Shown: positions 6,190-61,034 of the stretch, piece after piece
Layout: each line of letters opens with the position of its first letter
How positions within the stretch are numbered: position 1 is the first letter of the stretch
Assembly: GCA_026125795.1 (NCBI GenBank)
Contig: JAHCKM010000005.1
Location: 451,513 to 515,512, forward strand
Direction: 5' to 3'
Length of the DNA: 64,000 nucleotides
DNA from: Burkholderiaceae bacterium
GTDB lineage: Bacteria > Pseudomonadota > Gammaproteobacteria > Burkholderiales > Burkholderiaceae_C
Program-made: the position numbers and the translations under genes
The notes under the pieces: generated by a model
What the model was told of the DNA's origin: nothing
What the model saw: only the letters and a program-made list of their open reading frames with translations
Database searches by the model: none

Positions 6190-7353
6190 ATGATCCATCA
6201 GTCCCGAACAACAAAGCCACGCCATTCGAGCATGAGTGCAGCGATCATGCTGCTTCTGTCGGCTTGCGGAGGAAGTGGCGGCGGCACATCCACCGAGGCC
6301 GAAGCATCGGGCGAGTCGCCCACCGTGGCGGAGGTGGCATGGTCGCAATGCGCCACCGAAGGCGGCACCTGCTCCTTCTCCGGCACTCGCGCCGTGCGAT
6401 ACGGCACCTCCGACAAGTTCAACACGCTCACCGCCAGCAATGGCGTCTCCTGCACGAACCAGGTGTTCGGTGACCCGGCCGTGGGCGAGTTGAAGACCTG
6501 CTGGGTTGGGGGCAATGGGGCCAGCACCCCCGCGGCGCCGCCGACGCCGGCGGTATCGCCGAACAGTGGCTCGGCAGGTCCGCGTGTCAGCTCGTTCTCA
6601 TCGTCCGGGCCGATCGTCGCCAGTGCCGGCCAGGTCATCGCCGGTGTGCGGATCCAGAATTCCGGCGGCCCTTGCATCACCATCCCCGCCGGCGCCACCG
6701 GAGTGGTTGTGCGCGACTCCGACATCGGACCGTGCGGCGGCAGCGCCAACATCCTGATCGAGGGTGCGAACGCGACCGTCGAATACTCCTTCGTTCACAA
6801 CGGCAATCGCGGCGTGCTGGCGCACCACACCAGTGGCGCCGTCACCCGCAACAGCAAGTTCGACACCTTCTACGGGCCCAAATTCAACGGCACCGCGATC
6901 GAGTACGACTACATGGACGGCGGCGTGATCGACGGCAACGTGGTCACCGGCAGCAACTACGCGAGCGATGCGGTGAGCTCGTACGAAAGCTCCGGCATCC
7001 GGATGACCAACAACCTCATCGACATCAATGTGGCCGAGCCGTCGGCGGCCGCTTTCACGATGGGCGATTCCACCAGCGGCAAGCCCGGCGCCAACAACTA
7101 CGTCGCCGGCAACATCGTGCGCCAGAGCGGCGGCGTACCGGCCGGCGTGTTCGGCTCCAACGGCAACACCGTCCTCGAGAAGAACTGCCTCACCGCCGGC
7201 ATCCAGGCCTACAACTACTCCGGCGTGTTCGTCGGTGTGACGGTCCGGAACAACGTCATCAACATGGCCGCCTCGTTCGTCCCCGACGCCTCCGCCATCG
7301 CCGGCTGGGGGACCAATATCAATTCGACGAACTGCGCTCTGGTTCCCAACTGA
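6190..7353 (+). CDS. Secreted beta-helix lipoprotein, shorter paralog
   Basis: A 387-residue protein with a lipoprotein signal: basic start, hydrophobic stretch, lipobox LSAC with Cys26. Residues of about 50-105 form a small cysteine-containing module (WSQCATEGGTCSFSGTRAVRYG) that I recall from secreted carbohydrate-active proteins but cannot name. About 250 residues of right-handed parallel beta-helix of the pectate-lyase-like type follow (RDSDIGPCGG, NNLIDINVAEPS, RNNVINMA). It has a convergent paralog at 7498-9012. Inside an EPS cluster it may bind, trim or cleave the polymer at the outer membrane; no catalytic residues can be assigned. An internal ATG at 6232 is an alternative start. Confidence 0.72.
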   Translation: MIHQSRTTKPRHSSMSAAIMLLLSACGGSGGGTSTEAEASGESPTVAEVAWSQCATEGGTCSFSGTRAVRYGTSDKFNTLTASNGVSCTNQVFGDPAVGELKTCWVGGNGASTPAAPPTPAVSPNSGSAGPRVSSFSSSGPIVASAGQVIAGVRIQNSGGPCITIPAGATGVVVRDSDIGPCGGSANILIEGANATVEYSFVHNGNRGVLAHHTSGAVTRNSKFDTFYGPKFNGTAIEYDYMDGGVIDGNVVTGSNYASDAVSSYESSGIRMTNNLIDINVAEPSAAAFTMGDSTSGKPGANNYVAGNIVRQSGGVPAGVFGSNGNTVLEKNCLTAGIQAYNYSGVFVGVTVRNNVINMAASFVPDASAIAGWGTNINSTNCALVPN

Positions 7354-7497: not shown

Positions 7498-9012
7498 TCA
7501 CTTTGGCAGCAGCGAGCAGTTGGTCGAGTTGATGTTGGTGCTCCATCCTGCGATAGCCGACGTGTCGGGGACAAACGAGGCGCCCATGTTGATCACGTTG
7601 TTCCGGACCGTCACGCCGACGAACGCACCCGAGTAGTTGTAGGCCTGGATGCCGGCAGTGAGGCAGTTCTTCTCCAACGTGGTGTTGCCGCCGGAGCCGA
7701 ACACGCCGGCCGGTACGCCCCCGGTCTGGCGCACGATGTTGCCGGACACATGGTTGTTCACTCCGGGGTTTCCGGTGGTCGAGTCGCCCATCGTGAAGGC
7801 GGCCCCGCTGGGCTCGGCCATGTCGATGTCGATCGTGTTGTTGATCAGCTTGGCGTTGCTGCTCTCATAGAACGACACCGCGTCACTCGCGTAGGCGCGA
7901 CCGGTGACCAGATTGCCTTCGATCACGCCGTACTGGGTGCGGTCGTATTCGATCGCCGTGCCTTTGAACTTTGGGCCGTGGAACTGGTTGAACTTGGAGA
8001 ACCGCGTCGTCACGTTGCTCGCCCCGTCGACGAGCACCCCGCGCGCTCCATCGTGGACGAAGCTGTATTCGATCGTGGCGTTGTTTCCCCAGACCACGAT
8101 GTTGCCCTCACCCTCGCACGGACCGATGTCGGAATCGCGCACGACCACACCGGTGACGCCGGAGGGGATCGTGATGCAGGGGCCGTTCGGGTTGCTGATC
8201 CTCACCCCGGCGATGATCTGGCCGGAGGTGGCAGTGATCGGCGCCGAGACCGTGAATGTGGAAACTCGCGGTCCAGGGGCATTGGTTGCCGGTGCCGGTG
8301 CCGGTGCCGGTGCCGGTGCCGGTGCCGGTGCCGGTGCCGGTGCCGGCGCGGGGGCAGGTGCCGGCGCGGGCGTTGGAGTCGGTGAGGGCGCCGGGCTTGG
8401 TGCAGGCGCCGGGACCGGCGCGGGAGCCGGACTCGGCGTAGGCGATGCCGTGACCGGTGCGCTGGTCGTCGTGCTGCTGTGCGAACAGAGGTTCTCGTAG
8501 TTGGTGGCAGGCGCCTGGAACGCGCTGTCGACGCACGCCACCGCGCCATCGGCAACACGAGTCAGGACGCGGCTGCCGTCGATGGCGGCGTATCGCACCT
8601 CACGTCGACCCGAGAACGTGCAGCTGCCTCCCTCCCTGGCGCAGTGAACCCAGCTCGACGTGGCAGGAGCGGGTGCCGGAGCTGGCGTCGGCGACGGGGC
8701 CGGCGCGGGTGCTGGCGTCGGCGCAGGAGCCGGCGCCGTTGATGGGCTGGGCGCGGGTGCCGGCGAAGGGTTGAGCGTGCCGCCGCCGAGCCGGCGCCTC
8801 CATTTGCCGAACAGAGCGTCGGCCGATTCGCCGCTGATGCCGGTGGGTTCGACGACCACGCCTGCACCGGTGCTGCCACCAGCTTGTTCGAGCCCTTGAC
8901 CGGTTTCTGAACTGCCGCCGCACGCGGCCATCATCATCGTGACGCAGGTCGTGATCGTTGCGCCGCGCAAGCGAGCATCTGATTTCGGTTGCAGTGCCTT
9001 TGACGTGTTCAC
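7498..9012 (-). CDS. Secreted beta-helix lipoprotein, long paralog with Pro-Ala linker
   Basis: About 504 residues from a GTG at 9012 preceded by AGAGG; longer upstream extensions are open but have no signal character. The signal ends MAAC with Cys31. Next comes a Pro/Ala-rich stretch, the same cysteine module as its neighbour (WVHCAREGGSCTFSGRREVRY), a second long Pro-Ala linker and a C-terminal beta-helix domain clearly more than half identical to the convergent paralog (RDSDIGPC, AFTMGDST, LEKNCLTAGIQAYNYSG shared). The second linker is encoded by a pure hexanucleotide repeat. The flexible linkers suggest a surface lipoprotein that reaches into the EPS layer. Enzymatic activity is unproven. 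Confidence 0.72.
   Translation of the reverse strand: MNTSKALQPKSDARLRGATITTCVTMMMAACGGSSETGQGLEQAGGSTGAGVVVEPTGISGESADALFGKWRRRLGGGTLNPSPAPAPSPSTAPAPAPTPAPAPAPSPTPAPAPAPATSSWVHCAREGGSCTFSGRREVRYAAIDGSRVLTRVADGAVACVDSAFQAPATNYENLCSHSSTTTSAPVTASPTPSPAPAPVPAPAPSPAPSPTPTPAPAPAPAPAPAPAPAPAPAPAPAPAPATNAPGPRVSTFTVSAPITATSGQIIAGVRISNPNGPCITIPSGVTGVVVRDSDIGPCEGEGNIVVWGNNATIEYSFVHDGARGVLVDGASNVTTRFSKFNQFHGPKFKGTAIEYDRTQYGVIEGNLVTGRAYASDAVSFYESSNAKLINNTIDIDMAEPSGAAFTMGDSTTGNPGVNNHVSGNIVRQTGGVPAGVFGSGGNTTLEKNCLTAGIQAYNYSGAFVGVTVRNNVINMGASFVPDTSAIAGWSTNINSTNCSLLPK
8288..8341. repeat. Hexanucleotide microsatellite, nine perfect copies
   Basis: Nine uninterrupted copies of GCCGGT on the plus strand, followed by one GCCGGC and degenerate GC-rich copies. 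Read on the minus strand it encodes alternating Pro-Ala in the lipoprotein linker. Gain or loss of a unit keeps the frame and changes linker length by two residues. Confidence 0.95.
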
Positions 9013-28112: not shown

Positions 28113-28220
28113 GTGAAATTGCCCCCACGCTCGTGTTGCTCGCTGCCCCCCGAGCTCCGAAGGAGCCCCTTCGTGCCTCCTGGGTCGCGTCAGCGCCTTC
28201 GGGCGGCCGGGCGCCGCTGA
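28113..28220 (+). repeat. GC-rich repeat (type A) forming a 35-codon leader ORF before ubiJ
   Basis: Contains the type A modules GCCCCCACGCTC, GCTCGCTGCCCCCCGAG and a GGCGGCCGGGC end, shared in diverged form with copies at 30537-30612, in hutH and in the importer ATPase gene. It is one uninterrupted ORF from GTG 28113 to TGA 28218-28220, ending one base before the ubiJ ATG. Whether it is translated is unknown. Confidence 0.6.
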
Positions 28221-28221
28221 C

Positions 28222-28764
28222 ATGCAAAACCTGCAGGGATTGCTCGTCCCGGCCGTCGTCGAACGGCTGGTCCTGGTGGTGAACCATGTGTTGACCAGCG
28301 AGCCGGTGGCGATGCAGCGGCTCGCGCCGCATCAGGGCCGCCTGATCGCACTCGACTGGGATCAATGGCCCGCCTGGCTGCCGGCCGTGCCGATGCTCCG
28401 GTTCCGCGTCACGCCGCCCGGGCTGCTCGAGTGGTGCGGGCTCGAAAGTGCGCCGCCGGCCTCGCTCACGGTGCAGGTCGACGCGTCCAATCCGCCGCTG
28501 CTGTTCGCGCGTTCGCTCGCCGGCGAACCGCCGCCGCTCACCATTTCCGGCGACGCGGCGCTGGCCACCGACATCCGGTGGCTGGTCGACAACCTGCGCT
28601 GGGATGTGGAGTCCGATCTCGAACGCTTCTTCGGTCCGGTGGTCGCGCGGCAGCTGGGCCGCCTCGGCTCGGCGCTGGCTGCAGGCTTGCGCGGGCTGGC
28701 ACGGCGCACCCCGTGGACGCAGCAGCGCGACGACCCGGGCCGCGGCTCGCATCCGTCGGCATGA
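28222..28764 (+). CDS. ubiJ: Ubiquinone biosynthesis accessory factor UbiJ
   Basis: 180 residues with an SCP2-type lipid-binding domain. ISGDAALATDIRWLVDNLRWDVESDLERFFGPVVARQL is the recognisable C-terminal pattern (an acidic, DVE-containing segment before an amphipathic helix). Together with UbiB directly downstream this matches the ubiJ-ubiB pair of proteobacteria. UbiJ organises the soluble Ubi complex and binds prenylated intermediates. The stop codon lies inside an ATGA that begins a 59-bp repeat unit. Start ATG 28222 is preceded by a repeat-derived ORF rather than a classical RBS. Confidence 0.85.
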   Translation: MQNLQGLLVPAVVERLVLVVNHVLTSEPVAMQRLAPHQGRLIALDWDQWPAWLPAVPMLRFRVTPPGLLEWCGLESAPPASLTVQVDASNPPLLFARSLAGEPPPLTISGDAALATDIRWLVDNLRWDVESDLERFFGPVVARQLGRLGSALAAGLRGLARRTPWTQQRDDPGRGSHPSA

Positions 28765-28819
28765 GCCGCCGGGCCGCTCCCAAGGCGAATTCCGGAGCGC
28801 GCAGCGCGGAGGTTTCCTT
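28761..28819 (+). repeat. 59-bp intercistronic unit, copy after ubiJ (20-codon mini-ORF)
   Basis: Starts at the ATGA that holds the ubiJ stop and ends just before the next ATGA. Read from ATG 28761 it encodes [20 protein letters not shown] and stops at 28821-28823, overlapping the ATG at 28820. GGAGG lies 7 bases before that ATG. A GCGC-GCA-GCGC hairpin sits inside. Near-identical units are found at 52593-52769 and 57066-57124. Confidence 0.85.
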
Positions 28820-28909
28820 ATGAGCGCGCCGGGCCGCACCCAAGCGCGAATCCCGCAGCGCGCAGCGCGCAGGGTTGCTCGACTGAAAGCCGCGCCGGGT
28901 GCGGCCTGA
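28820..28909 (+). repeat. Degenerate second unit, 29-codon ORF
   Basis: Begins ATGAGCGCGCCGGGCCGCAC, clearly a diverged copy of the preceding 59-bp unit, again with a GCGC-GCA-GCGC stem. The ORF continues past the usual length to a TGA at 28907-28909, leaving 27 bp before ubiB, so coupling to ubiB has been lost or never existed here. Confidence 0.65.
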
Positions 28910-28936: not shown

Positions 28937-30487
28937 ATGAGACGCCTGGCGCGCCTGCTGTTCATCGCCTTGACGCTGCTGCGTTTCGGCGTCGACGAAG
29001 TGGCGTTGTCGGGCTTCAAGCAGCGCTGGGTGCGGTTGCTGGTGCGCGTGGTCACGATCGGCCGGCGCTTCGACGAGCCGCGTGGCGTGCGGCTGCGCAA
29101 GGCGTTCGAGCGCCTGGGCCCGATCTACGTCAAGTTCGGCCAGGTGTTGTCGACGCGGCGCGACGTGCTGCCGCTCGACGTGGCCAACGAGCTGGCGCTG
29201 CTGCAGGACCGCGTGCCGCCGTTTTCCGGCGCGCTGGCGGTGGCGATCGTCGAGCGCGCATTCGGCGCGCCGATCGGCACGCTGTTCGCTCACTTCGATC
29301 CGCAGCCGGTGGCCAGCGCGTCGATCGCGCAGGTGCATTTCGCCACATTGAAGACCGGACGCGAAGTTGCCGTGAAGGTGCTGCGCCCCGGCATGCTGGC
29401 GTCGATCGAGAGCGATCTGTCCCTGCTGCATACGCTGGCGCGCGGCGTCGAACGCGTCTGGGTCGACGCCAAGCGCCTGAAGCCGCGCGAGGTGGTGGCC
29501 GAGTTCGACACCTACCTGCATGACGAGCTCGACCTGGTGCGCGAGGCGGCCAACGCGGCGCAACTGCGCCGCAACATGGCCGAGCTCGGCCTGCTGATGA
29601 TTCCTGAGATGGTGTGGCACCTGTGCGCGCACAACGTGATCGTGATGGAGCGCATGAAAGGCGTACCGATCAGCCAGCTCCAGCGCCTGCGCGAGGCCGG
29701 CGTCGACGCGAAGAAGCTGGCGCGCGACGGCGTGACGATCTTCTTCACGCAGGTGTTCCGCGATGGCTTCTTCCACGCCGACATGCACCCGGGCAACATC
29801 CAGGTCAGCATCGAGCCGGCCACGCTCGGGCGCTACATTGCGCTTGACTTCGGCATCATCGGCACGCTGACGGAGTTCGACAAGGAGTACCTGGCGCAGA
29901 ACTTCCTGGCGTTCTTCCGCCGCGACTACAAGCGCGTGGCCGAGTTGCACGTTGAGAGCGGCTGGGTGCCGCCGCACACCCGCGTCGATGCGCTGGAGAG
30001 CGCGATCCGCGCGGTCTGCGAGCCCCATTTCGACCGGCCGCTGAAGGACATCTCACTCGGTCAGGTGCTGATGCGGTTGTTCCAGACCTCGCGCCGCTTC
30101 AATGTCCAGATCCAGCCGCAGCTGGTGCTGCTGCAAAAGACGCTGCTCAACGTCGAAGGGCTCGGGCGCCAGCTCGACCCCGACCTCGATCTCTGGAGCA
30201 CGGCCAAGCCGTTTCTCGAGCGTTGGATGCACGAGCAGGTGGGCTGGCGCGGGCTGCTCGATCGGCTGAAGAACGAGGCGCCGCGCTACGCGCAGCTGTT
30301 GCCGGAGCTGCCGCGCCTGGCGCATCAGGCGCTGCAGCGGCACGGCAGCATCGAGCCCGCGCTGCTCGAGGCGATGCTGCTGGAGCAGCGCCGCACCAAC
30401 CGGCTGCTGCGCAGCTGGATGGTCGTGGCGATCGTTTTCGTCGCCGGCGTGCTGATGGTGCAGTGGTGGTTGTCGTGGCCCACGTGA
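28937..30487 (+). CDS. ubiB: Ubiquinone biosynthesis ATPase/kinase-like protein UbiB
   Basis: 516 residues of the UbiB/ADCK/ABC1 family. The invariant KxGQ motif is in [16 protein letters not shown]; the Ala-rich loop is [11 protein letters not shown]; the ATP Lys is in [20 protein letters not shown] and ALDFGIIG are the catalytic and metal loops. Two hydrophobic helices at the C-terminus ([17 protein letters not shown]) anchor it to the inner membrane. Required for aerobic coenzyme Q synthesis, probably by extracting lipid intermediates using ATP. Downstream of ubiJ across two repeat units. Confidence 0.94.
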
Positions 30488-30536: not shown

Positions 30537-30635
30537 ATGTCCGCCCCCATGCTCACTGCGTTCGCTGCCCCCCGAGGGGGCGCTCAGTTGGCTTGGGAGC
30601 GGCCCGGCGCCGACTGCCGAGGGATGCCATGCTGA
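30537..30635 (+). repeat. GC-rich repeat (type A) forming a 32-codon leader ORF before the symporter gene
   Basis: Modules GCCCCCATGCTC, TTCGCTGCCCCCCGAGGGGGC and TTGGGAGCGGCCCGGC match the type A repeats elsewhere in the window. An ORF starts at ATG 30537 and stops at 30633-30635, overlapping the symporter start at 30629 by 7 bases. Translation is unproven. Confidence 0.6.
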
Positions 30636-35218: not shown

Positions 35219-35767
35219 GTGAAAGGCCGCGCGTACAAGATTCCGGAGTCGGTGCTCGTCGTGATCCACACCTCGGAGTTGGAGGTGCTGCTGATCGAAC
35301 GTGCCGACAAGCCGGGTTACTGGCAAAGCGTCACCGGCTCGAAAGATCGCGTCGACGAGCCGCTGGTCGAGACCTGCGTGCGCGAGGTCGCCGAAGAAAC
35401 CGGGATCCGCCTGACGGCGGACCCGGTGCCCGGAGTCACGGGCTCCCCCCCACCCCCCGCCCACCCCCTCGAGGGGGCGGGGCCGCCGACGGTACCGCTG
35501 TCGGCCTTGCGCGACTGGCGCATGTCGAACGTGTACGAGATCTATCCGGTGTGGCGCAGCCGCTATGCGCCCGGGGTGACGCACAACACCGAACACGTGT
35601 TCGGCCTCACGGTGCCGGCCGGCATCGCGGTCACGCTGAACCCGCGCGAGCACCTGCGCCACCAGTGGCTGCCGTTCCTGGCCGCGGCCGATCGTTGTTT
35701 CTCGCCGAGCAATGCCGAGGCGATCCTGCAGTTGCCGCGCTTCGCGCCGCCAGGGGCACGGCGGTGA
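35219..35767 (+). CDS. nudB: Dihydroneopterin triphosphate diphosphatase (Nudix), with in-frame insertion
   Basis: 182 residues from GTG 35219; the family is usually about 150. YKIPESVLVVIHT, GYWQSVTGSKDRVDEP and the Nudix helix REVAEETGI identify NudB, a folate-pathway pyrophosphatase. There is one extra residue between the Nudix Gly and first Glu. After DPVPG a stretch of about 25 residues rich in Pro and Gly (codons of about 35430-35510) is inserted before LRDWRMSNVYEI; its DNA contains CCCCCTCGAGGGGG and resembles the dispersed GC-rich repeats of this window. The stop overlaps a 59-bp repeat unit as GTGA. Confidence 0.87.
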   Translation: MKGRAYKIPESVLVVIHTSELEVLLIERADKPGYWQSVTGSKDRVDEPLVETCVREVAEETGIRLTADPVPGVTGSPPPPAHPLEGAGPPTVPLSALRDWRMSNVYEIYPVWRSRYAPGVTHNTEHVFGLTVPAGIAVTLNPREHLRHQWLPFLAAADRCFSPSNAEAILQLPRFAPPGARR

Positions 35768-35822
35768 GCGCCGCACGGCCGCTCCGAAGGCGCTCGCTCC
35801 CCCGCAGGGCCCAGGGGGCTCG
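35764..35822 (+). repeat. Diverged 59-bp intercistronic unit between nudB and the EEP gene
   Basis: Fills exactly the stretch from the GTGA holding the nudB stop to the ATGA starting the next gene. Read from GTG 35764 it gives 20 codons (MSAARPLRRRSLPRRAQGAR, seven Arg) and stops at 35824-35826, overlapping the ATG at 35823. The module GGCCGCTCCGAAGGCG matches the other units; the second half differs and has a CCCCC...GGGGG stem. Confidence 0.65.
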
Positions 35823-36650
35823 ATGACGACCACGCGGCCCACGCGTCTCGGTCCTGGCGCATCGCGCTTCGCGCCGTCGACGCAGTACGACAGCACGCGC
35901 CTGCGCGTGGCCACCTACAACATCCACAAGGGCGTGCGCGGCCTCGGGCTGCGCAAGCGGCTGGAGATCCACAACCTCGGGCTGGGCGTCGAGGCGCTCG
36001 ACGCCGACCTGGTGTTCCTGCAGGAGGTGCGCCTGTTCCATCGGCGCGAGGCGCGCCGCTTCGAGCGCACCTGGTTCGGCTGGCCCGAACAGGGGCAGGC
36101 CGACTATCTGGCACCCGAAGGCTACGACGTGGCCTATCGCACCAACGCGATCACCCGCCACGGCGAGCACGGCAACGCGCTGCTGTCGCGCTGGCCGATG
36201 GGCGACGTGGATCACCACGACGTCAGCGCACATCGCTTCGAGCAGCGCGGCCTGCTGCACGTGCCGGTGCACTGGCAGGGCCGCACCGTGCATACGGTGG
36301 TGGCGCACTTCGGCCTCACGCACGGGGGACGGCTGCAGCAGGTGCAATACCTGTCGCGCTTCATCGCGCAGTTCGTGCCGCGCAGTGCGCCGCTGCTGGT
36401 GGCCGGCGACTTCAACGACTGGAACGAGCGGCTCGACGCGCCGATGCACGGCATCGGGCTGCACCGCGCCGAGCTGCACCCCGGTGGGGCGCGCCTGCGC
36501 CCCACCTTTCCGTCGCGCGTGCCGGTGTTCGCGCTCGATCGTGTGTACACGCGCGGTTTCCACTGCGTCTCGCTCGAGGTGCCGCGCGGCGCGGCGTGGG
36601 CCCGCATGTCCGACCACCTGCCGCTGGTGGTCGAACTCGAAGCCGACTGA
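35823..36650 (+). CDS. Endonuclease/exonuclease/phosphatase-family protein (YbhP-like)
   Basis: 275 residues from ATG 35823. Motifs: RVATYNIHKGVRG, DLVFLQEVR (metal Glu), GNALLSRWP, AHFGLTHGGRLQQVQYL, VAGDFNDWNE and MSDHLPLVVELE, the full EEP metal-dependent phosphodiesterase set. No signal peptide. It pairs with clsB immediately downstream as ybhP does with clsB in E. coli, so a role in phospholipid metabolism is likely. Confidence 0.86.
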   Translation: MTTTRPTRLGPGASRFAPSTQYDSTRLRVATYNIHKGVRGLGLRKRLEIHNLGLGVEALDADLVFLQEVRLFHRREARRFERTWFGWPEQGQADYLAPEGYDVAYRTNAITRHGEHGNALLSRWPMGDVDHHDVSAHRFEQRGLLHVPVHWQGRTVHTVVAHFGLTHGGRLQQVQYLSRFIAQFVPRSAPLLVAGDFNDWNERLDAPMHGIGLHRAELHPGGARLRPTFPSRVPVFALDRVYTRGFHCVSLEVPRGAAWARMSDHLPLVVELEAD

Positions 36651-50787: not shown

Positions 50788-52008
50788 CTATCGCTCCATC
50801 CCGGCGCGCACCACGCGGCGGCACGGGTTGCGGCCGAACCAGTAGGCCAGCTCGTTCGGGTGCTCCAGGTCCCACACGACGAAGTCGGCCTGCTTGCCCG
50901 CCTGCAGCGTGCCGTGCGAGGCCTGCAGGCCGAGCGCGCGCGCCGCGTGGGCGGTCACGCCGCGCAGGGCCTCCTCGGGCGTGAGGCGGAACAGCGTGCA
51001 GGCCATGTGCAGCATCAGGATCAGCGACAGACCGGGCGACGAGCCGGGATTGTGGTCCGTGGCCACCGCCATCGGCACGCCGGCCTCGCGCAGCCCGGAA
51101 ATCGGCGGCAGCTTGCTTTCGCGCAGGAAATAGAACGCGCCGGGCAGCAGCACCGCCACCGTGCCGGCCTGCGCCATCGCCTGCACGCCGGCCGCGCTCA
51201 GGTGCTCCAGATGGTCGCACGACAGCGCGCCGTATCGGGCGGCGAGGGCGGCGCCGTCCATGTCGCTCAGCTGCTCGGCGTGCAGCTTCACCGGCAACTG
51301 CAGTCGACGGGCGGCATCGAACACGCGCTGGGTCTGCGCGCGTGTGAAGCCGATGCGCTCGCAGAACACGTCGACCGCGTCGACCAACCCCGCGGCGTGC
51401 CATCCATCCATCCATTGCACGACGGCGTCGATGTAGTCGTCGGCGCGGCCTTCGAACTCCGGCGGCAGCGCGTGCGCGGCGAGGCTGGTGGTGCGCACGG
51501 TCAGCGGCAGTGCCTGCCCCAGCCGGCGCGCCGCGCGCAAGCAACGCGCCTCGTCGTCGCGGCTGAGTCCGTAGCCCGACTTGATTTCGATGGTGGTCAC
51601 GCCTTCCGACATCAGCGCCAGAGCCCGTGCGCGTGCGCTGGCGAACAGCGTGTCGTCATCGGCGGCGCGCGTGGCCGCCACCGTGGAGCGGATGCCGCCG
51701 CCGGCGCGGGCGATGTCTTCGTAGCTCGCGCCTTGCAGCCGCAGCTCAAACTCGCTTGCGCGCTGGCCGCCGTACACCAGGTGCGTGTGGCAGTCGATCA
51801 GGCCCGGCGTGACGAGCGCACCGCCCAGATCGTGCTCGGCAGCGATCGGCGCATCGGCCGGCAGGTTGGCCTCGGGGCCGACCCACACGATGCGATCGCC
51901 GCGCACCCGCAGCGCGCCGCGTTCGATCAGCCCCCAGCCGGGCGCGTCGGCCAGAGTCACAAGGCGCGCGTTGCGCCACAGCGTCGTGGCGGCTGCGGTG
52001 GCGCTCAT
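50788..52008 (-). CDS. hutI: Imidazolonepropionase
   Basis: 406 residues from ATG 52008; the open frame continues upstream over hutD. The metal site is in [66 protein letters not shown] and [11 protein letters not shown]. It opens the imidazolone ring to N-formimidoylglutamate. The ATG overlaps the hutD stop (ATGA), so it is translationally coupled. Confidence 0.95.
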
Positions 52009-52592
52009 CGACCGTCCTTGGCTTGGCGGAACTCCAGCCACCACGCGCGCGAGGCCGAAGGGTCGATCGGCTCGACGCGCCAGCGCTGCCGCGCGCCGTG
52101 CCCGCTCCACAACAGCGTGCCCGGCGCGACGGCGGCGGCATCCGTGTCGTCGATCTGCAGCTTCATCGCGTCGGCCGCAAAGAGCGCGCGCCACGCTGCA
52201 TTGGCCAGGTGCTCGACGCCCGGCTCCGCGCGTGCCATGGCGCCGGCGCCGGCAGCGGCGGGCACCAGCAGGTTCAGCGCGGTGGCGGCGCCGGCGAGCA
52301 GCTCGCACATCGGCGCCTCGGCGCCGTCGAAGCGCAGCGGCGCCGAGGCCGGCTCGACGAGGCGTCGCCCGCCGCGCAGCGCGAGCACGACGCCGGCGCC
52401 CGCCACCACGGTGAACCAGCGTTCGCATCCGCTGTAGTCCGAGAACGGCCCGTCGCGCGTGATCTCGGCCAGGCTGACGCGCAGTCGCCAGGCGCCGGGA
52501 TCCGGCCAGAACAGCAGGTTGCGCTGGCTTCCGCCGCCGTTCTTCCACGGCACGGGCACGATGCGATCGGCGCGAACGGTCTCGAGGCTCAT
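52005..52592 (-). CDS. hutD: HutD-family cupin
   Basis: 195 residues. [44 protein letters not shown] and [13 protein letters not shown] mark the HutD family, a bicupin thought to limit hut flux, possibly by binding N-formylglutamate. Its ATG (52590-52592) is the final ATGA of a chain of three 59-bp mini-ORF repeat units downstream of hutC, and its own stop overlaps hutI. Confidence 0.92.
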
Positions 52593-52769
52593 GGGGCACC
52601 CTCCGGCCTGCGGCCTCCGGAATTCGCCTTGGGAGCGGCCCGGCGGCTCATTGGGAATCCTCCGGCCTGCGGCCTCCGGAATTCGCCTTGGGAGCGGCCC
52701 GGCGGCTCATTGGGCATCCTCCGGCCTGCGGCCTCCGGAATTCGCCTTGGGAGCGGCCCGGCGGCTCAT
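52593..52769 (-). repeat. Three tandem 59-bp units (20-codon mini-ORFs) between hutC and hutD
   Basis: Units at 52711-52769, 52652-52710 and 52593-52651 (transcription order), nearly identical. Each begins ATGAGCCGCCGGG, encodes 20 codons ([16 protein letters not shown] then DAQ, DSQ or GAP), carries a GGCC-GCA-GGCC hairpin and in two copies GGAGG 7 bases before the next ATG. Each stop overlaps the following ATG: hutC stop, unit, unit, unit, hutD start all joined by ATGA. Confidence 0.92.
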
Positions 52770-53509
52770 GGCGTGAACTGTCCCTCAAGTTGGTAGCGCG
52801 AGCCCGGGTGCACCAGGCGCGCCAGCGTGATCGGCGCGTGGCGCGTGAACGTGCGGCGCACCACGATCAGGCACGCCTCGTCCGGCGGGATGGCCAGCAG
52901 CCTGGCCTCCTGTGGCGTGGCATGCGCCGCCTCGATCGAATATTGCGCGCGCCACAACGCGGTGGCCTCGAACAGGTAGCGCGTGGGCGTGGTCTGCGAG
53001 AAGTCGACGTCCAGGTAACCCGGCGCGCAGGCCGGGTTGACGTAGCGGTCCTCGCATTGCAGCGGCACGTGGTTCTCGTGGTGCACGATCAGCGTGTGGA
53101 ACACGCGCGCGCCGGCGTCCACGCCCAGTTGCGCGGCCAGCGCGGCGCTGGCGCGCTCGGCGCGCTGCAGGTGCACGCTGGCATGGTGGTGGTGGCCGCG
53201 CGATTCGATCTCCTCGTGCAGGTCGCGGATCGTCAGCGTCGACGACACGCGGTGCAGCGGCGCGGCGAACGTGCCCACGCCCTGCGAGCGCTCGACCAGG
53301 CCCTCGGCCTGCAGCTCGCGCAGCGCGCGGTTGACCGTCATGCGGCTGACGCCGAACTCGGCCACCAGCTCGGCCTCCGACGGCATCAGCGCACCGGGCG
53401 GCCAGCGGCCGGCGGCCAGGCCCTGCTTCAGGTGCTGCTTGACGCGGGCGTACGGGGCGACCGCCGCCGTCTTCGGCGTGCGGGCCAGCGCGGCTTCGGG
53501 AGAAACCAT
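52766..53509 (-). CDS. hutC: Histidine utilisation repressor HutC (GntR/HutC family)
   Basis: 247 residues. An N-terminal wHTH of the GntR family (LMPSEAELVAEFGVSRMTVNRALRELQAEGLVERSQGVGTF) is followed by the UTRA/HutC effector domain (HHENHVPLQCEDRYVNPACAPGYLDVDF). Urocanate is the expected inducer. It probably represses both itself and hutU through the palindrome at 53532-53547. Its likely promoter puts the RNA start within a base or two of the ATG, so the message may be leaderless. The stop lies in the ATGA opening the repeat chain. Confidence 0.94.
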   Translation of the reverse strand: MVSPEAALARTPKTAAVAPYARVKQHLKQGLAAGRWPPGALMPSEAELVAEFGVSRMTVNRALRELQAEGLVERSQGVGTFAAPLHRVSSTLTIRDLHEEIESRGHHHHASVHLQRAERASAALAAQLGVDAGARVFHTLIVHHENHVPLQCEDRYVNPACAPGYLDVDFSQTTPTRYLFEATALWRAQYSIEAAHATPQEARLLAIPPDEACLIVVRRTFTRHAPITLARLVHPGSRYQLEGQFTP

Positions 53510-55362: not shown

Positions 55363-57069
55363 ATGCAGATGGTCAATCTGAAGCCCGGAGCGTTGACGCT
55401 CGACGATCTGCAGGCCATTCACGCGGGCGGCATGCAACTGCAGCTTCCGGAGCCCGCACGCAGTGCGATCCGCGCCAGCGCCGAAGTGGTGCAACGCGCC
55501 GCGCGTGGCGACGCCGCGGTCTACGGCGTCAACACCGGTTTCGGCAAGCTGGCGTCCACGCGCATCAGCGAGGCCGACCTCGGTGCGCTGCAGCTCAACC
55601 TGATCCGCTCGCACAGCGTCGGCGTCGGCGAACCGCTGCAGCCTGCGGTGGTGCGGCTGATGCTGGCGCTGAAGGCATCGTCGCTCGCGCGCGGTGCATC
55701 GGGCGTGCGCGAGGACGTGGTCGACACGTTGCTGGCGGTGCACAACGCCGGCCTGGTGCCCTGCGTGCCGAGCCAGGGCTCGGTCGGCGCGTCGGGCGAT
55801 CTGGCGCCCTTGGCCCACATGACCTTGGCGCTGATCGGCGAGGGCGAGTTCCTGGTCGACGGCGCGCGCAAGCCAGCCGCAACGTGCCTGCGCGAGGCCG
55901 GCATCGCCCCGCTGAAGCTGGCCGCCAAGGAAGGCCTGGCGCTGATCAACGGCACGCAGGTGTCGACCGCGCTCGCGCTGCACGCCTTCCTGAGCTTCGA
56001 GCCGGTGCTCGAATCGGCGCTGGTGATCGGCGCGCTCACGGTCGATGCGGCACGCGGCAGCGACGGACCGTTCGATCCGCGCATCCATGCATTGCGCGGC
56101 CAGCCGGGGCAGATCGACGTGGCACGCTACTACCGCGCGCTGCTGGACGGGTCGGCGATCCGCCGGTCGCACCTGCAAGGCGACGACCGTGTGCAGGACC
56201 CGTATTCGCTGCGCTGCCAGCCGCAGGTGGTGGGCGCCTGCCTCGATCAGCTGCGCCACGCCGCGCTGGTGCTGCTGCGCGAGGCCAACGCGGTGACCGA
56301 CAACCCCTTGGTGTTCGCCGATGACGGCGAAGGTGCGGACGGCCGGGCGCCGGGCCGCCCCAAGCCCGGCCGCGCCCCCTCGGGGGGCAGCGACAACGGC
56401 CAGATGGCCGTTGCGGCGAGGCTCACTTCGCGCAGCGAAGTGAAGGCGCGAAGCGCCGGCCGGAGCCAAGAAAGTGAGCGTGGGGGCACGATCTTGTCGG
56501 GCGGCAACTTCCACGCCGAGCCGGTGGCGCTGGCCTGCGACGCGATGGCGCTGGCCATCGCCGAGATCGGCGCCATCGCCGAGCGCCGCATCGCGATGCT
56601 GATCGATGCCGGCGTATCGCGCCTGCCGCCGTTTCTCACCCCGGACGCCGGCCTGAACTCCGGCTTCATGATCGCGCACGTGACCGCGGCGTCGCTGGCC
56701 AGCGAGAACAAGAGCCTGGCGCATCCGGCCAGCGTCGACTCGTTGCCGACCTCGGCCAACCAGGAAGACCACGTGTCGATGGCCACGTTCGCGGCGCGCC
56801 GGCTGCAGCCGATGATCGCCAACACGGCGCACATCCTGGGCATCGAGCTGCTTGCCGCGGCGCAGGGCATCGAGTACCTGCGGCCGCTGAAGAGCTCGGC
56901 CGCGCTGGAACAGGCCCACACCTTGCTTCGTGCGGTGTGCCCCGCCATGCACAGCGACCGTTATCTGGCGCCCGACATTGAGCGCGCGACCGAGCTGGTC
57001 ACGCATGGTGCGCTGTCGCGCGTGTTCCGCACCCTTGCGGGCTTGCCCGCGTTGTGGACGCCGGCTTGA
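55363..57069 (+). CDS. hutH: Histidine ammonia-lyase with in-frame repeat insertion
   Basis: 568 residues from ATG 55363 (or 55369); the family is about 510. The MIO-forming Ala-Ser-Gly is residues 143-145 (SVGASGDLAPL). YGVNTGFGKLA, LINGTQVSTALAL, DRVQDPYSLRCQPQVVGA, LSGGNFHAEPVALACD, NQEDHVSMATFAARRL are all present. Between NPLVFADDGE and TILSGGNFHAEP about 53 residues (324-376; bases 56332-56490) have no family counterpart and are encoded by a GC-rich dispersed repeat. The rest is complete, so it is probably functional. Deaminates histidine to urocanate. Confidence 0.93.
   Translation: MQMVNLKPGALTLDDLQAIHAGGMQLQLPEPARSAIRASAEVVQRAARGDAAVYGVNTGFGKLASTRISEADLGALQLNLIRSHSVGVGEPLQPAVVRLMLALKASSLARGASGVREDVVDTLLAVHNAGLVPCVPSQGSVGASGDLAPLAHMTLALIGEGEFLVDGARKPAATCLREAGIAPLKLAAKEGLALINGTQVSTALALHAFLSFEPVLESALVIGALTVDAARGSDGPFDPRIHALRGQPGQIDVARYYRALLDGSAIRRSHLQGDDRVQDPYSLRCQPQVVGACLDQLRHAALVLLREANAVTDNPLVFADDGEGADGRAPGRPKPGRAPSGGSDNGQMAVAARLTSRSEVKARSAGRSQESERGGTILSGGNFHAEPVALACDAMALAIAEIGAIAERRIAMLIDAGVSRLPPFLTPDAGLNSGFMIAHVTAASLASENKSLAHPASVDSLPTSANQEDHVSMATFAARRLQPMIANTAHILGIELLAAAQGIEYLRPLKSSAALEQAHTLLRAVCPAMHSDRYLAPDIERATELVTHGALSRVFRTLAGLPALWTPA
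56332..56490. repeat. Type A GC-rich repeat inserted in frame in hutH
   Basis: Contains GGGCCGCCCCAAGC, GCGCCCCCTCGGGGGGCAGCGA and GTGAGCGTGGGGGC, the type A modules also seen in the importer ATPase gene (inverted relative to 28113-28220). An extra central piece has stems AACGGCCA/TGGCCGTT, TCACTTCGC-GCA-GCGAAGTGA and GGCGC-GAA-GCGCC. 159 bases, divisible by three and without stop codons in the hutH frame. Confidence 0.85.
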
Positions 57070-57124
57070 GCCGCCGGGCCGCTCCCAAGGCGAAACCCGG
57101 AGTGCGCAGCACGAAGGTTTCCGT
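57066..57124 (+). repeat. 59-bp intercistronic unit after hutH
   Basis: Starts at the TTGA that holds the hutH stop; 59 bases with the same left half (TGAGCCGCCGGGCCGCTCCC) as the units at 28761 and 52593. From TTG 57066 it reads 20 codons to TAA (57126-57128). The internal stem is GTGC-GCA-GCAC, with compensating changes against the other copies. The next gene starts at 57171, so it is not coupled here. Confidence 0.8.
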
Positions 57125-57170
57125 ATAACCCGTTCGAGAAATCGATCCATCCATTGAAGCAGGAGCAGCA

Positions 57171-60182: not shown

Positions 60183-61034
60183 GTGACAGCCATTCTTTCC
60201 ATACGCGGCGTCGAGCGCCGCTTCGACGCCACACTGGCGCTGCAGGCCACCGATCTCGACGTGGCCGAGAACGACTTCATCACCATCCTGGGTCCCAGCG
60301 GCTGCGGCAAGAGCACGCTGCTGCGCATCGTGGCCGGTCTCGACGGGCCCACCGCCGGCGAGGTGCTGCTCGACGGCCGGCGCGTCGCCGGCCCCGGTGC
60401 CGATCGCGGCATGGTATTCCAGAGCTACACGCTGTTCCCGTGGCTCAGCGTGCTCGACAACGTCTGCTTCGGGCTGCGCGAGCGCGGCCTGCCGCGCGCG
60501 CAGCAGCTCGAGATCGCGCACGCGTTCATCGCCAAGGTGGGCCTGGTCGGCTTCGAGCAGCACTATCCCAAGCAGCTGTCCGGCGGCATGCAGCAGCGCA
60601 CGGCGCTGGCGCGTGCCCTGGCCAACCAGCCCCGCATGCTGTTGATGGACGAGCCGTTCGGTGCGCTCGATCACCAGACGCGGGAGCTGATGCAGGAGCT
60701 GTTGCTCGGCATCTGGGAAGGCGCAAGCGCGGCCAGCGCGGGGCCGCTCCCAAGCGGGCCGCAGCCCCCTCGGGGGGCAGCGACCGCAGGGAGCGTGGGG
60801 GCCTGTCCCACGGTGTTGTTCGTCACGCACGACATCGACGAGGCGGTGTTCATGGGCTCGCGCGCCGTGGTGATGAGCGCACGACCGGGCCGCATCAAGC
60901 TCGACCGCGTGGTGCCGCTGCCGCACCCGCGGCACTACTCGGTGAAGACCACGCCGGCATTCACCGAGCTGAAGGCCGAGCTGACCGAGGCCGTGCGGGT
61001 TGAAGTGCGCGCGGCGCAGATGCAGGCCGGCTGA
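60183..61034 (+). CDS. NitT/TauT-type ABC transporter ATPase with in-frame repeat insertion
   Basis: 283 residues from GTG 60183. Walker A LGPSGCGKSTLLRIVAG, Q-loop MVFQSYTLFPW, signature LSGGMQQRTALARAL, Walker B LLMDEPFGALD and switch His in LFVTHDIDEAVFMGSRAVVM are complete. Between LLGIWEG and TVLFVTHD about 28 residues (codons 60720-60809) are encoded by a type A GC-rich repeat; the family normally has a few residues there. The extra loop sits between the Walker B and H-loop regions. It belongs with the receptor and permease upstream. Confidence 0.9.
   Translation: MTAILSIRGVERRFDATLALQATDLDVAENDFITILGPSGCGKSTLLRIVAGLDGPTAGEVLLDGRRVAGPGADRGMVFQSYTLFPWLSVLDNVCFGLRERGLPRAQQLEIAHAFIAKVGLVGFEQHYPKQLSGGMQQRTALARALANQPRMLLMDEPFGALDHQTRELMQELLLGIWEGASAASAGPLPSGPQPPRGAATAGSVGACPTVLFVTHDIDEAVFMGSRAVVMSARPGRIKLDRVVPLPHPRHYSVKTTPAFTELKAELTEAVRVEVRAAQMQAG
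60729..60806. repeat. Type A GC-rich repeat inserted in the ATPase gene
   Basis: GGGGCCGCTCCCAAGC, GCCCCCTCGGGGGGCAGCGA and GGGAGCGTGGGGGCC follow each other exactly as in hutH (56332-56490), without the extra centre. In frame, no stop codon. Confidence 0.85.

Follow-up and report, generated by a model that had tools for sequence, protein, structure and literature searches.

We describe a family of short structured repeats of the Burkholderiales that we read, with a probability of roughly 0.78, as mobile or once-mobile spacers that occupy ATGA or GTGA overlaps and keep the genes of an operon translationally coupled. From sequence, this coupling is best explained as being kept by the unit's own start codon, Shine-Dalgarno sequence and stop-start overlap. 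The array from which the family is described lies in a 64,000-nucleotide stretch of DNA from a Burkholderiaceae bacterium, which we call the window.

Between hutC and hutD, on the minus strand of the window, the interval 52593-52769 measures 177 nt, by inspection exactly 3 x 59 nt. Each unit has an ATG, 20 codons and a TGA sharing bases with the next ATG; ATGA accordingly recurs at offsets 0, 59, 118 and 177 of the array, and hutD begins at the last of them. The stop codon of hutC, encoding a GntR/UTRA regulator (52766-53509, minus strand; Pfam GntR 1.3e-23, UTRA 7.2e-31), lies inside the first ATGA. Unit 1 (52711-52769), unit 2 (52652-52710) and unit 3 (52593-52651), each of 59 nt and on the minus strand, score 78.6, 77.9 and 90.8 bits respectively against the covariance model described below, and unit 3, whose tail is GGAGGGTGCCCC, adjoins hutD (52005-52592, minus strand; Pfam HutD 2.8e-28), whose ATG lies inside the fourth ATGA. 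GGAGG occurs twice in every unit, at positions 34-38, within the second of the unit's two hairpins (hairpin 2), and at positions 48-52, with the next ATG seven bases downstream of the latter. The first-pass annotation of this DNA had described three coupled 59-bp mini-cistrons joining hutC to hutD through four ATGA junctions, and the sequence confirms it. Pfam places a GntR/UTRA protein (HutC), HutD and a HutI-like amidohydrolase around the array; urocanase and a HutH-type lyase are encoded next to them.

The three units differ pairwise by 1, 2 and 3 bases, and the Tandem Repeats Finder score of the array (347) is the highest of 29 rows. Near-identity of this kind is what a local tandem duplication at hutC-hutD without wider meaning would leave, a reading to which we give hardly any credence since the family is found at many unrelated junctions in its own and in other genomes; as a full account, local duplication is refuted by these genome-wide copies. 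The window also holds repeats of other kinds: the hexamer TGCCGG in thirteen tandem copies at 8287-8364, and a 499-nt inverted repeat (6855-7353 and 7498-7996) whose arms are 79% complementary, lie 144 nt apart and fall within genes on opposite strands.

Copies had also been claimed at three other junctions of the window, and these are real, co-oriented with their genes and begin on the upstream TGA. On the plus strand, a unit on the stop of the gene at 28222-28764 (28761-28819; 78.7 bits) ends in an ATGA that opens a second, decayed unit (28820-28888, plus strand; 70.2 bits), which precedes an ABC1-kinase gene (28937-30487; Pfam ABC1). The HutH-type lyase gene (55363-57069) ends in a stop codon on which a decayed single unit (57066-57132, plus strand; 81.3 bits) begins. 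What did not hold up at these junctions is completeness: the units at 28820 and 57066 no longer relay because their far-end start codon has been lost, and the third junction, between a NUDIX gene and an Exo_endo_phos gene starting at 35823, carries a weak and diverged 59-nt member (35764-35822, plus strand; 25.4 bits). There the NUDIX stop lies inside a GTGA, the distance from this GTGA to the downstream ATGA (35823) is 59 nt, and hairpin 1 is retained beside a different second hairpin.

Hairpin 1 is also found alone, in intergenic positions, at 30590-30611 (minus strand) and at loci L244-L263 of the same genome, where very different stem sequences surround a common CGGGCCGCTCCCAAG or CGGCCGCTCCGAAG core and a CCCCCTCGGGGGG-type hairpin often follows; stems of at least 5 bp flank these cores at 17 of 50 sites, against 2.6 with shuffled flanks. 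A second intergenic repeat, of GCCCCC...CCCCGAGGGGGC type, occurs at 30543-30581 and 60764-60802 in opposite orientations, and also at 28121-28154.

The family extends well beyond the window. Searched against its own genome, an array unit gave 47 DNA matches at E<=10 (the strongest at 1.1e-29; many weaker ones were partial), and a covariance model built from 25 copies gave 144 matches at E<=1. Because 150 of 13,571 first-look candidates were scored with the model, the resulting copy number is a lower bound: the genome holds at least 70 two-hairpin copies (whole model, >=28 bits), and many of the remaining matches comprise the first hairpin only. We took 96 of the 144 matches into the analysis of genomic context, and 70 of those into the counts given below. 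An exact 24-mer from the head of the unit is present in at least 116 stretches of other genomes; among the matches listed (80 titles), the hosts are Variovorax, Polaromonas, Ramlibacter, Rhodoferax, Methylibium, Aquabacterium and others, the remainder being other Burkholderiales or betaproteobacterial MAGs. The DNA query matched 18 of 60 sampled genomes, its own included (18/36 in the window's family, 0/24 outside it), and the covariance model, under stricter filters, matched 19 of 300 genomes of the order at E<=1e-6, again including its own (8 within the family, 11 outside), some of the weakest matches being the first hairpin only. From other genomes we collected 144 loci (L031-L174), 137 of which were scanned; most of these copies were retrieved with a pattern beginning ATGA, and their heads are therefore not independent evidence.

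Searches for known relatives or carriers gave little. No match to Rfam was found within the window at gathering scores, nor at E<=5 over 52500-52850, and a known RNA family was rejected as an identification for the window. The 65-nt consensus had no match at E<=1e-3 among 72,556 plasmid records, although one copy (L063) sits on a contig titled plasmid pVarWS11_2, so that plasmids may yet play a part in its spread; viral contigs gave no exact match to the 24-mer. A RAYT transposase was rejected as the mover: Y1_Tnp (PF01797) had no match at E<=0.001 in the window's genome, in a search whose control was positive in 5 of 14 genomes.

Copies are concentrated where one gene meets the next. Genes were called with a codon model of our own, for which these same loci served as training data. 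By these calls, 33 of the 70 own-genome copies and, in other genomes, 115 of 168 start exactly on the TGA of a co-oriented gene. In those 33 the base 5' of the TGA is A in 24, G in 8, T in 1 and never C, compared with A 68, G 54, T 28 and C 93 among 243 called genes ending in TGA, a control that includes the repeat loci; the shortage of C (p 6e-7) makes these joints look like start-stop overlaps. A co-oriented gene start lies within 200 nt of 60 of the 70 copies. The bias towards start-stop joints and co-orientation is thus upheld, but the statement that copies are always at junctions was too strong, since called genes enclose 3 of the 70, and for 10 there is no co-oriented start within 200 nt. 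Typically, copies lie between co-oriented genes, from the stop codon of the one to the start of the other, and they are often tandem.

Comparison of equivalent loci supports the history proposed for the array, in which a unit entered an ancestral ATGA overlap of hutC and hutD and then multiplied in tandem. In a relative of the same genus (L265; hutC 85% identical) hutC and hutD meet in a bare ATGA overlap, and in a MAG locus (L046) a single unit separates them, so the loci compared carry 0, 1 and 3 units at this one junction. Among 23 other loci where hutD lies beside or near hutC the gap is exactly -4 in 9, L265 included; four further loci permit a -4 start, and the remainder have other spacings or intervening genes. 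Copy number varies elsewhere too, one junction carrying one unit in L032 and two in L033. A junction with two units in L036 and L040 is a bare ATGA in L098 and L129; another, with two units in L129 and one in L098, is a bare ATGA in L040 and has a different spacer of 121 nt in L036. For the own-genome copy at C2:860758 the ortholog (L132) has a GTGA overlap, and for a two-unit locus of genome G005 (L152) the window's genome (L256) has an ATGA overlap, or a start 20 nt on. Bare -4 overlaps, ATGA or GTGA, were found in this way at 5 junctions, hutC-hutD among them. Other sites differ: a livGF-like junction when empty has a spacing of -8 after TAA, in L046, at the junction corresponding to the window's hutH, 46 nt pass before the next start, and L077 has other DNA where L084 has a unit. 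The direction of change at these sites would be insertion rather than exact loss. The heptamer ATGAGCC shared by units and hutD had been taken for an insertion duplicate; it is more likely merely the common ATGA, because other downstream genes open ATGACC, ATGAAA, ATGACG and so on.

The reading frame gives evidence on function. We define phase 2 as the case in which the stop of the mini-frame overlaps the next start, and phase 0 as that in which the mini-frame reads on into the frame that follows. A next start was assigned to 181 of 238 copies; of the 57 dropped copies, 32 had no called gene, 23 no start near the Shine-Dalgarno sequence and 2 a blocking stop. Units with a DTGA head (ATGA, GTGA or TTGA; n=169) were in phase 2 in 142 cases, phase 0 in 26 and phase 1 in one, whereas the 12 units without such a head were divided 5, 3 and 4 among phases 2, 0 and 1 (Fisher 5.5e-5). 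The 23 dropped copies that have a called gene and no start near the Shine-Dalgarno sequence fall 11, 10 and 2 in the same order, and adding them would raise phase 1 to 3. A fixed length of 59 bp, as first supposed, is not a property of the family: DTGA-headed units span 38-71 nt (38, 56, 59, 62, 65 and 71 nt in phase 2; 57, 60 and 63 nt in phase 0; one 61-nt unit in phase 1), and it is phase that is conserved instead.

Since most copies have a common length by descent, we used a permutation of tails, exchanging the part after the rightmost AGG and leaving out 14 of 164 distinct DTG-headed units that have no such anchor. Across 150 distinct sequences, phase 2 was observed 125 times (84.2 expected) and phase 1 once (26.6 expected; p 5e-5 each); across 20 distinct length pairs, phase 2 was observed 13 times (6.6 expected; p 0.0023) and phase 1 once (6.3 expected; p 0.0047); own-genome copies alone gave phase 2 in 25 of 29 (14.6 expected). 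An internal stop interrupts the mini-frame in 1 of 151 distinct units, compared with 12 and 42 for the other two frames, and in 127 of 130 phase-2 units the stop overlaps the next start. The sequence record thus indicates that both the phase and the openness of the mini-frame are under constraint, and by this frame test the units are very probably translated; the phase rule would be the evolutionary sign of ribosomes using these frames of about 20 codons. The relay role first suggested for the units is to this extent supported.

A longer version of the unit, in which hairpin 1 is followed by additional hairpin sequence, occurs at L225, L229 and L231 in the own genome and at L056 and L076 in others; the gene called next to the copies at C4:158571 and C5:277424 of the own genome and at L056 begins at a distance of 116 nt, again in phase 2. 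At L296, L299, L303, L310 and L319 the downstream gene is called from the element's own ATG, as if the element were its N-terminus.

The constraint does not appear to reach the peptide. The units had been suggested as a source of conserved Arg-rich micropeptides with an SRRAAPKA core, and the idea that these are selected as protein draws on the open mini-frame and on its first half, which is nearly constant in the 59-nt class; that half, however, is the search pattern by which most copies were found. Synonymous changes take no larger share in the mini-frame (0.283) than in the other frames (0.309 and 0.321), 68 distinct 59-nt units encode 62 peptides, and the peptides of other length classes differ. 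We consider selection on a micropeptide very improbable: the feature that is kept, judging from these comparisons, is an open frame with the right exit and not the peptide, whose sequence is probably immaterial.

The RNA of the unit is predicted to form two hairpins. In hairpin 1 a stem leads through an internal loop, GCC or GCA opposite AA, to a helix of three pairs and a CCGCT loop. The inner helix exchanges GGG-CCC for CGG-CCG, and the outer stem in the GCGC class gains one base on each side and can then extend into the stop codon. In hairpin 2, GGCC, GCGC and GTGC/GCAC alternate immediately 5' of the Shine-Dalgarno sequence. RNAalifold found changes on both sides in 3 of 12 pairs among 25 copies, and in a covariation test on 19 selected sequences 12 cells were changed on both sides, against 1.8 in 500 shuffles, the named structure outdoing all slid versions on each measure. 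In that test, 13 of 18 sequences leave two pairs of the outer stem unpaired. The two pairs predicted to hide the Shine-Dalgarno sequence are invariant, and because they never vary the alignment is silent on them, for or against. The stems, as aligned, covary, and a single unit from the window folds no better than shuffles (z 0.47); the support for structure is therefore comparative, not energetic.

Covarying stems would also be expected of another class of element. REP sequences and BIMEs are small hairpins that recur outside genes or at gene ends, with RAYT transposases, and our repeat resembles them in being a small repeated hairpin in such positions. It might therefore be a REP- or MITE-like repeat that tolerates gene ends, whose hairpins affect mRNA stability or serve as the ends for transposition and whose mini-frame is a by-product; the occurrence of hairpin 1 alone in intergenic spots, in either orientation and beside other hairpins, fits this as the stems do. 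We nonetheless think this unlikely, because it leaves unaccounted for the missing phase 1 and a mini-frame open in 150 of 151 distinct units, and gives no reason for lengths of 56, 59, 62 and 65 nt beside 57, 60 and 63 nt. The unit differs from REP and BIME, too, in spanning from stop to start and holding a mini-frame, and its own genome has no PF01797 transposase.

We return, then, to the spacer that preserves coupling. The repeat would insert, or would once have inserted, at stop-start overlaps (ATGA or GTGA) within operons. A ribosome finishing at the upstream TGA would re-initiate at the repeat's overlapping ATG or GTG, translate the mini-frame of about 20 codons, opening hairpin 2 and thereby freeing the Shine-Dalgarno sequence, and terminate at the TGA overlapping the next ATG, where it would begin translating either the following unit or the downstream gene; phase-0 units could give the downstream protein an N-terminal extension. 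We infer from the sequences that re-initiation at the units and opening of hairpin 2 by ribosomes do take place, that copies moved by transposition and that copy number may affect output; copies with decayed ends are a counterpoint to the relay. In Haloferax and E. coli, 13 of 14 native pairs of overlapping genes proved strictly coupled when measured (PMC6728339).

The first pass knew of no element that spreads between overlapping genes while keeping their coupling, which was wrong, because the mycobacterial MIRUs share this principle: one review describes them as repeats that seem to be mobile, enter at start codons and carry in an ORF whose coupling has a spacing of -4 (PMC12548453), and in H37Rv three 77-bp MIRU units are described between senX3 and regX3 (PMC4213456). 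Both repeats are short, lie in tandem between genes, and contain an ORF that overlaps the stop and start of its neighbours by 4 nt; both appear to insert at start codons of overlapping genes, the loci here comprising 5 bare -4 junctions, 2 that differ and 1 that is filled. The 1997 MIRU paper of Supply and colleagues reportedly speaks of DTGA sites. The repeat differs in length and in its hosts, here Burkholderiales, on account of which we do not file it as a MIRU, and it is set beside MIRUs by description, not by sequence; the covarying two-hairpin structure and the phase statistics are features of the Burkholderiales repeat. By analogy it may work like a MIRU, and we claim no identity with one.

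Nearer in hosts is BRE, the beta-proteobacterial repeat element (Hot et al., 2011; PMC3110155), which Comamonadaceae and Bordetella carry both interspersed and in tandem. It is mostly intergenic, overlaps the ends of ORFs by a few bases and has some copies within coding sequence; copy number is variable, GC content is about 69% in Bordetella, and full length there is 75-91 bp. The authors proposed no function, and their account, as consulted, does not mention coupling. Our repeat is like BRE in its hosts (Comamonadaceae), in tandem copies whose number varies between genomes and in position; it differs, in a comparison by description only, in length, with DTGA-headed units of 38-71 nt against 75-91 bp, beside which stands the longer version, where the next gene lies about 116 nt away. 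Rickettsia palindromic elements, as far as the source consulted describes them, are likewise small repeats whose insertion preserves the reading frame, and differ in lying in-frame inside ORFs (PMC10969869), whereas 3 of 70 own-genome copies here are inside called genes. Our literature search, for which subscription papers were mostly outside scope, found no earlier description of the Burkholderiales element besides BRE. The principle of coupling is thus known already; the sequence, hosts, structure and frame evidence appear to be new.

We suggest, at about even odds, that the relay elements of the Burkholderiales arose independently of MIRUs, spread into ATGA overlaps and were selected on their phase, with the unit becoming the N-terminus of the downstream protein in some lineages. 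If so, selection would act on phase and not on the peptide or the exact length, and mobile spacers that preserve coupling would be a convergent strategy. The relay reading itself would mean that repeats can settle even where the genes of an operon overlap, because they bring the signal for coupling along, and that they do so in bacteria only distantly related to mycobacteria. Junctions that carry 0, 1, 2 or 3 units lend themselves to testing how successive re-initiations add up on one mRNA.
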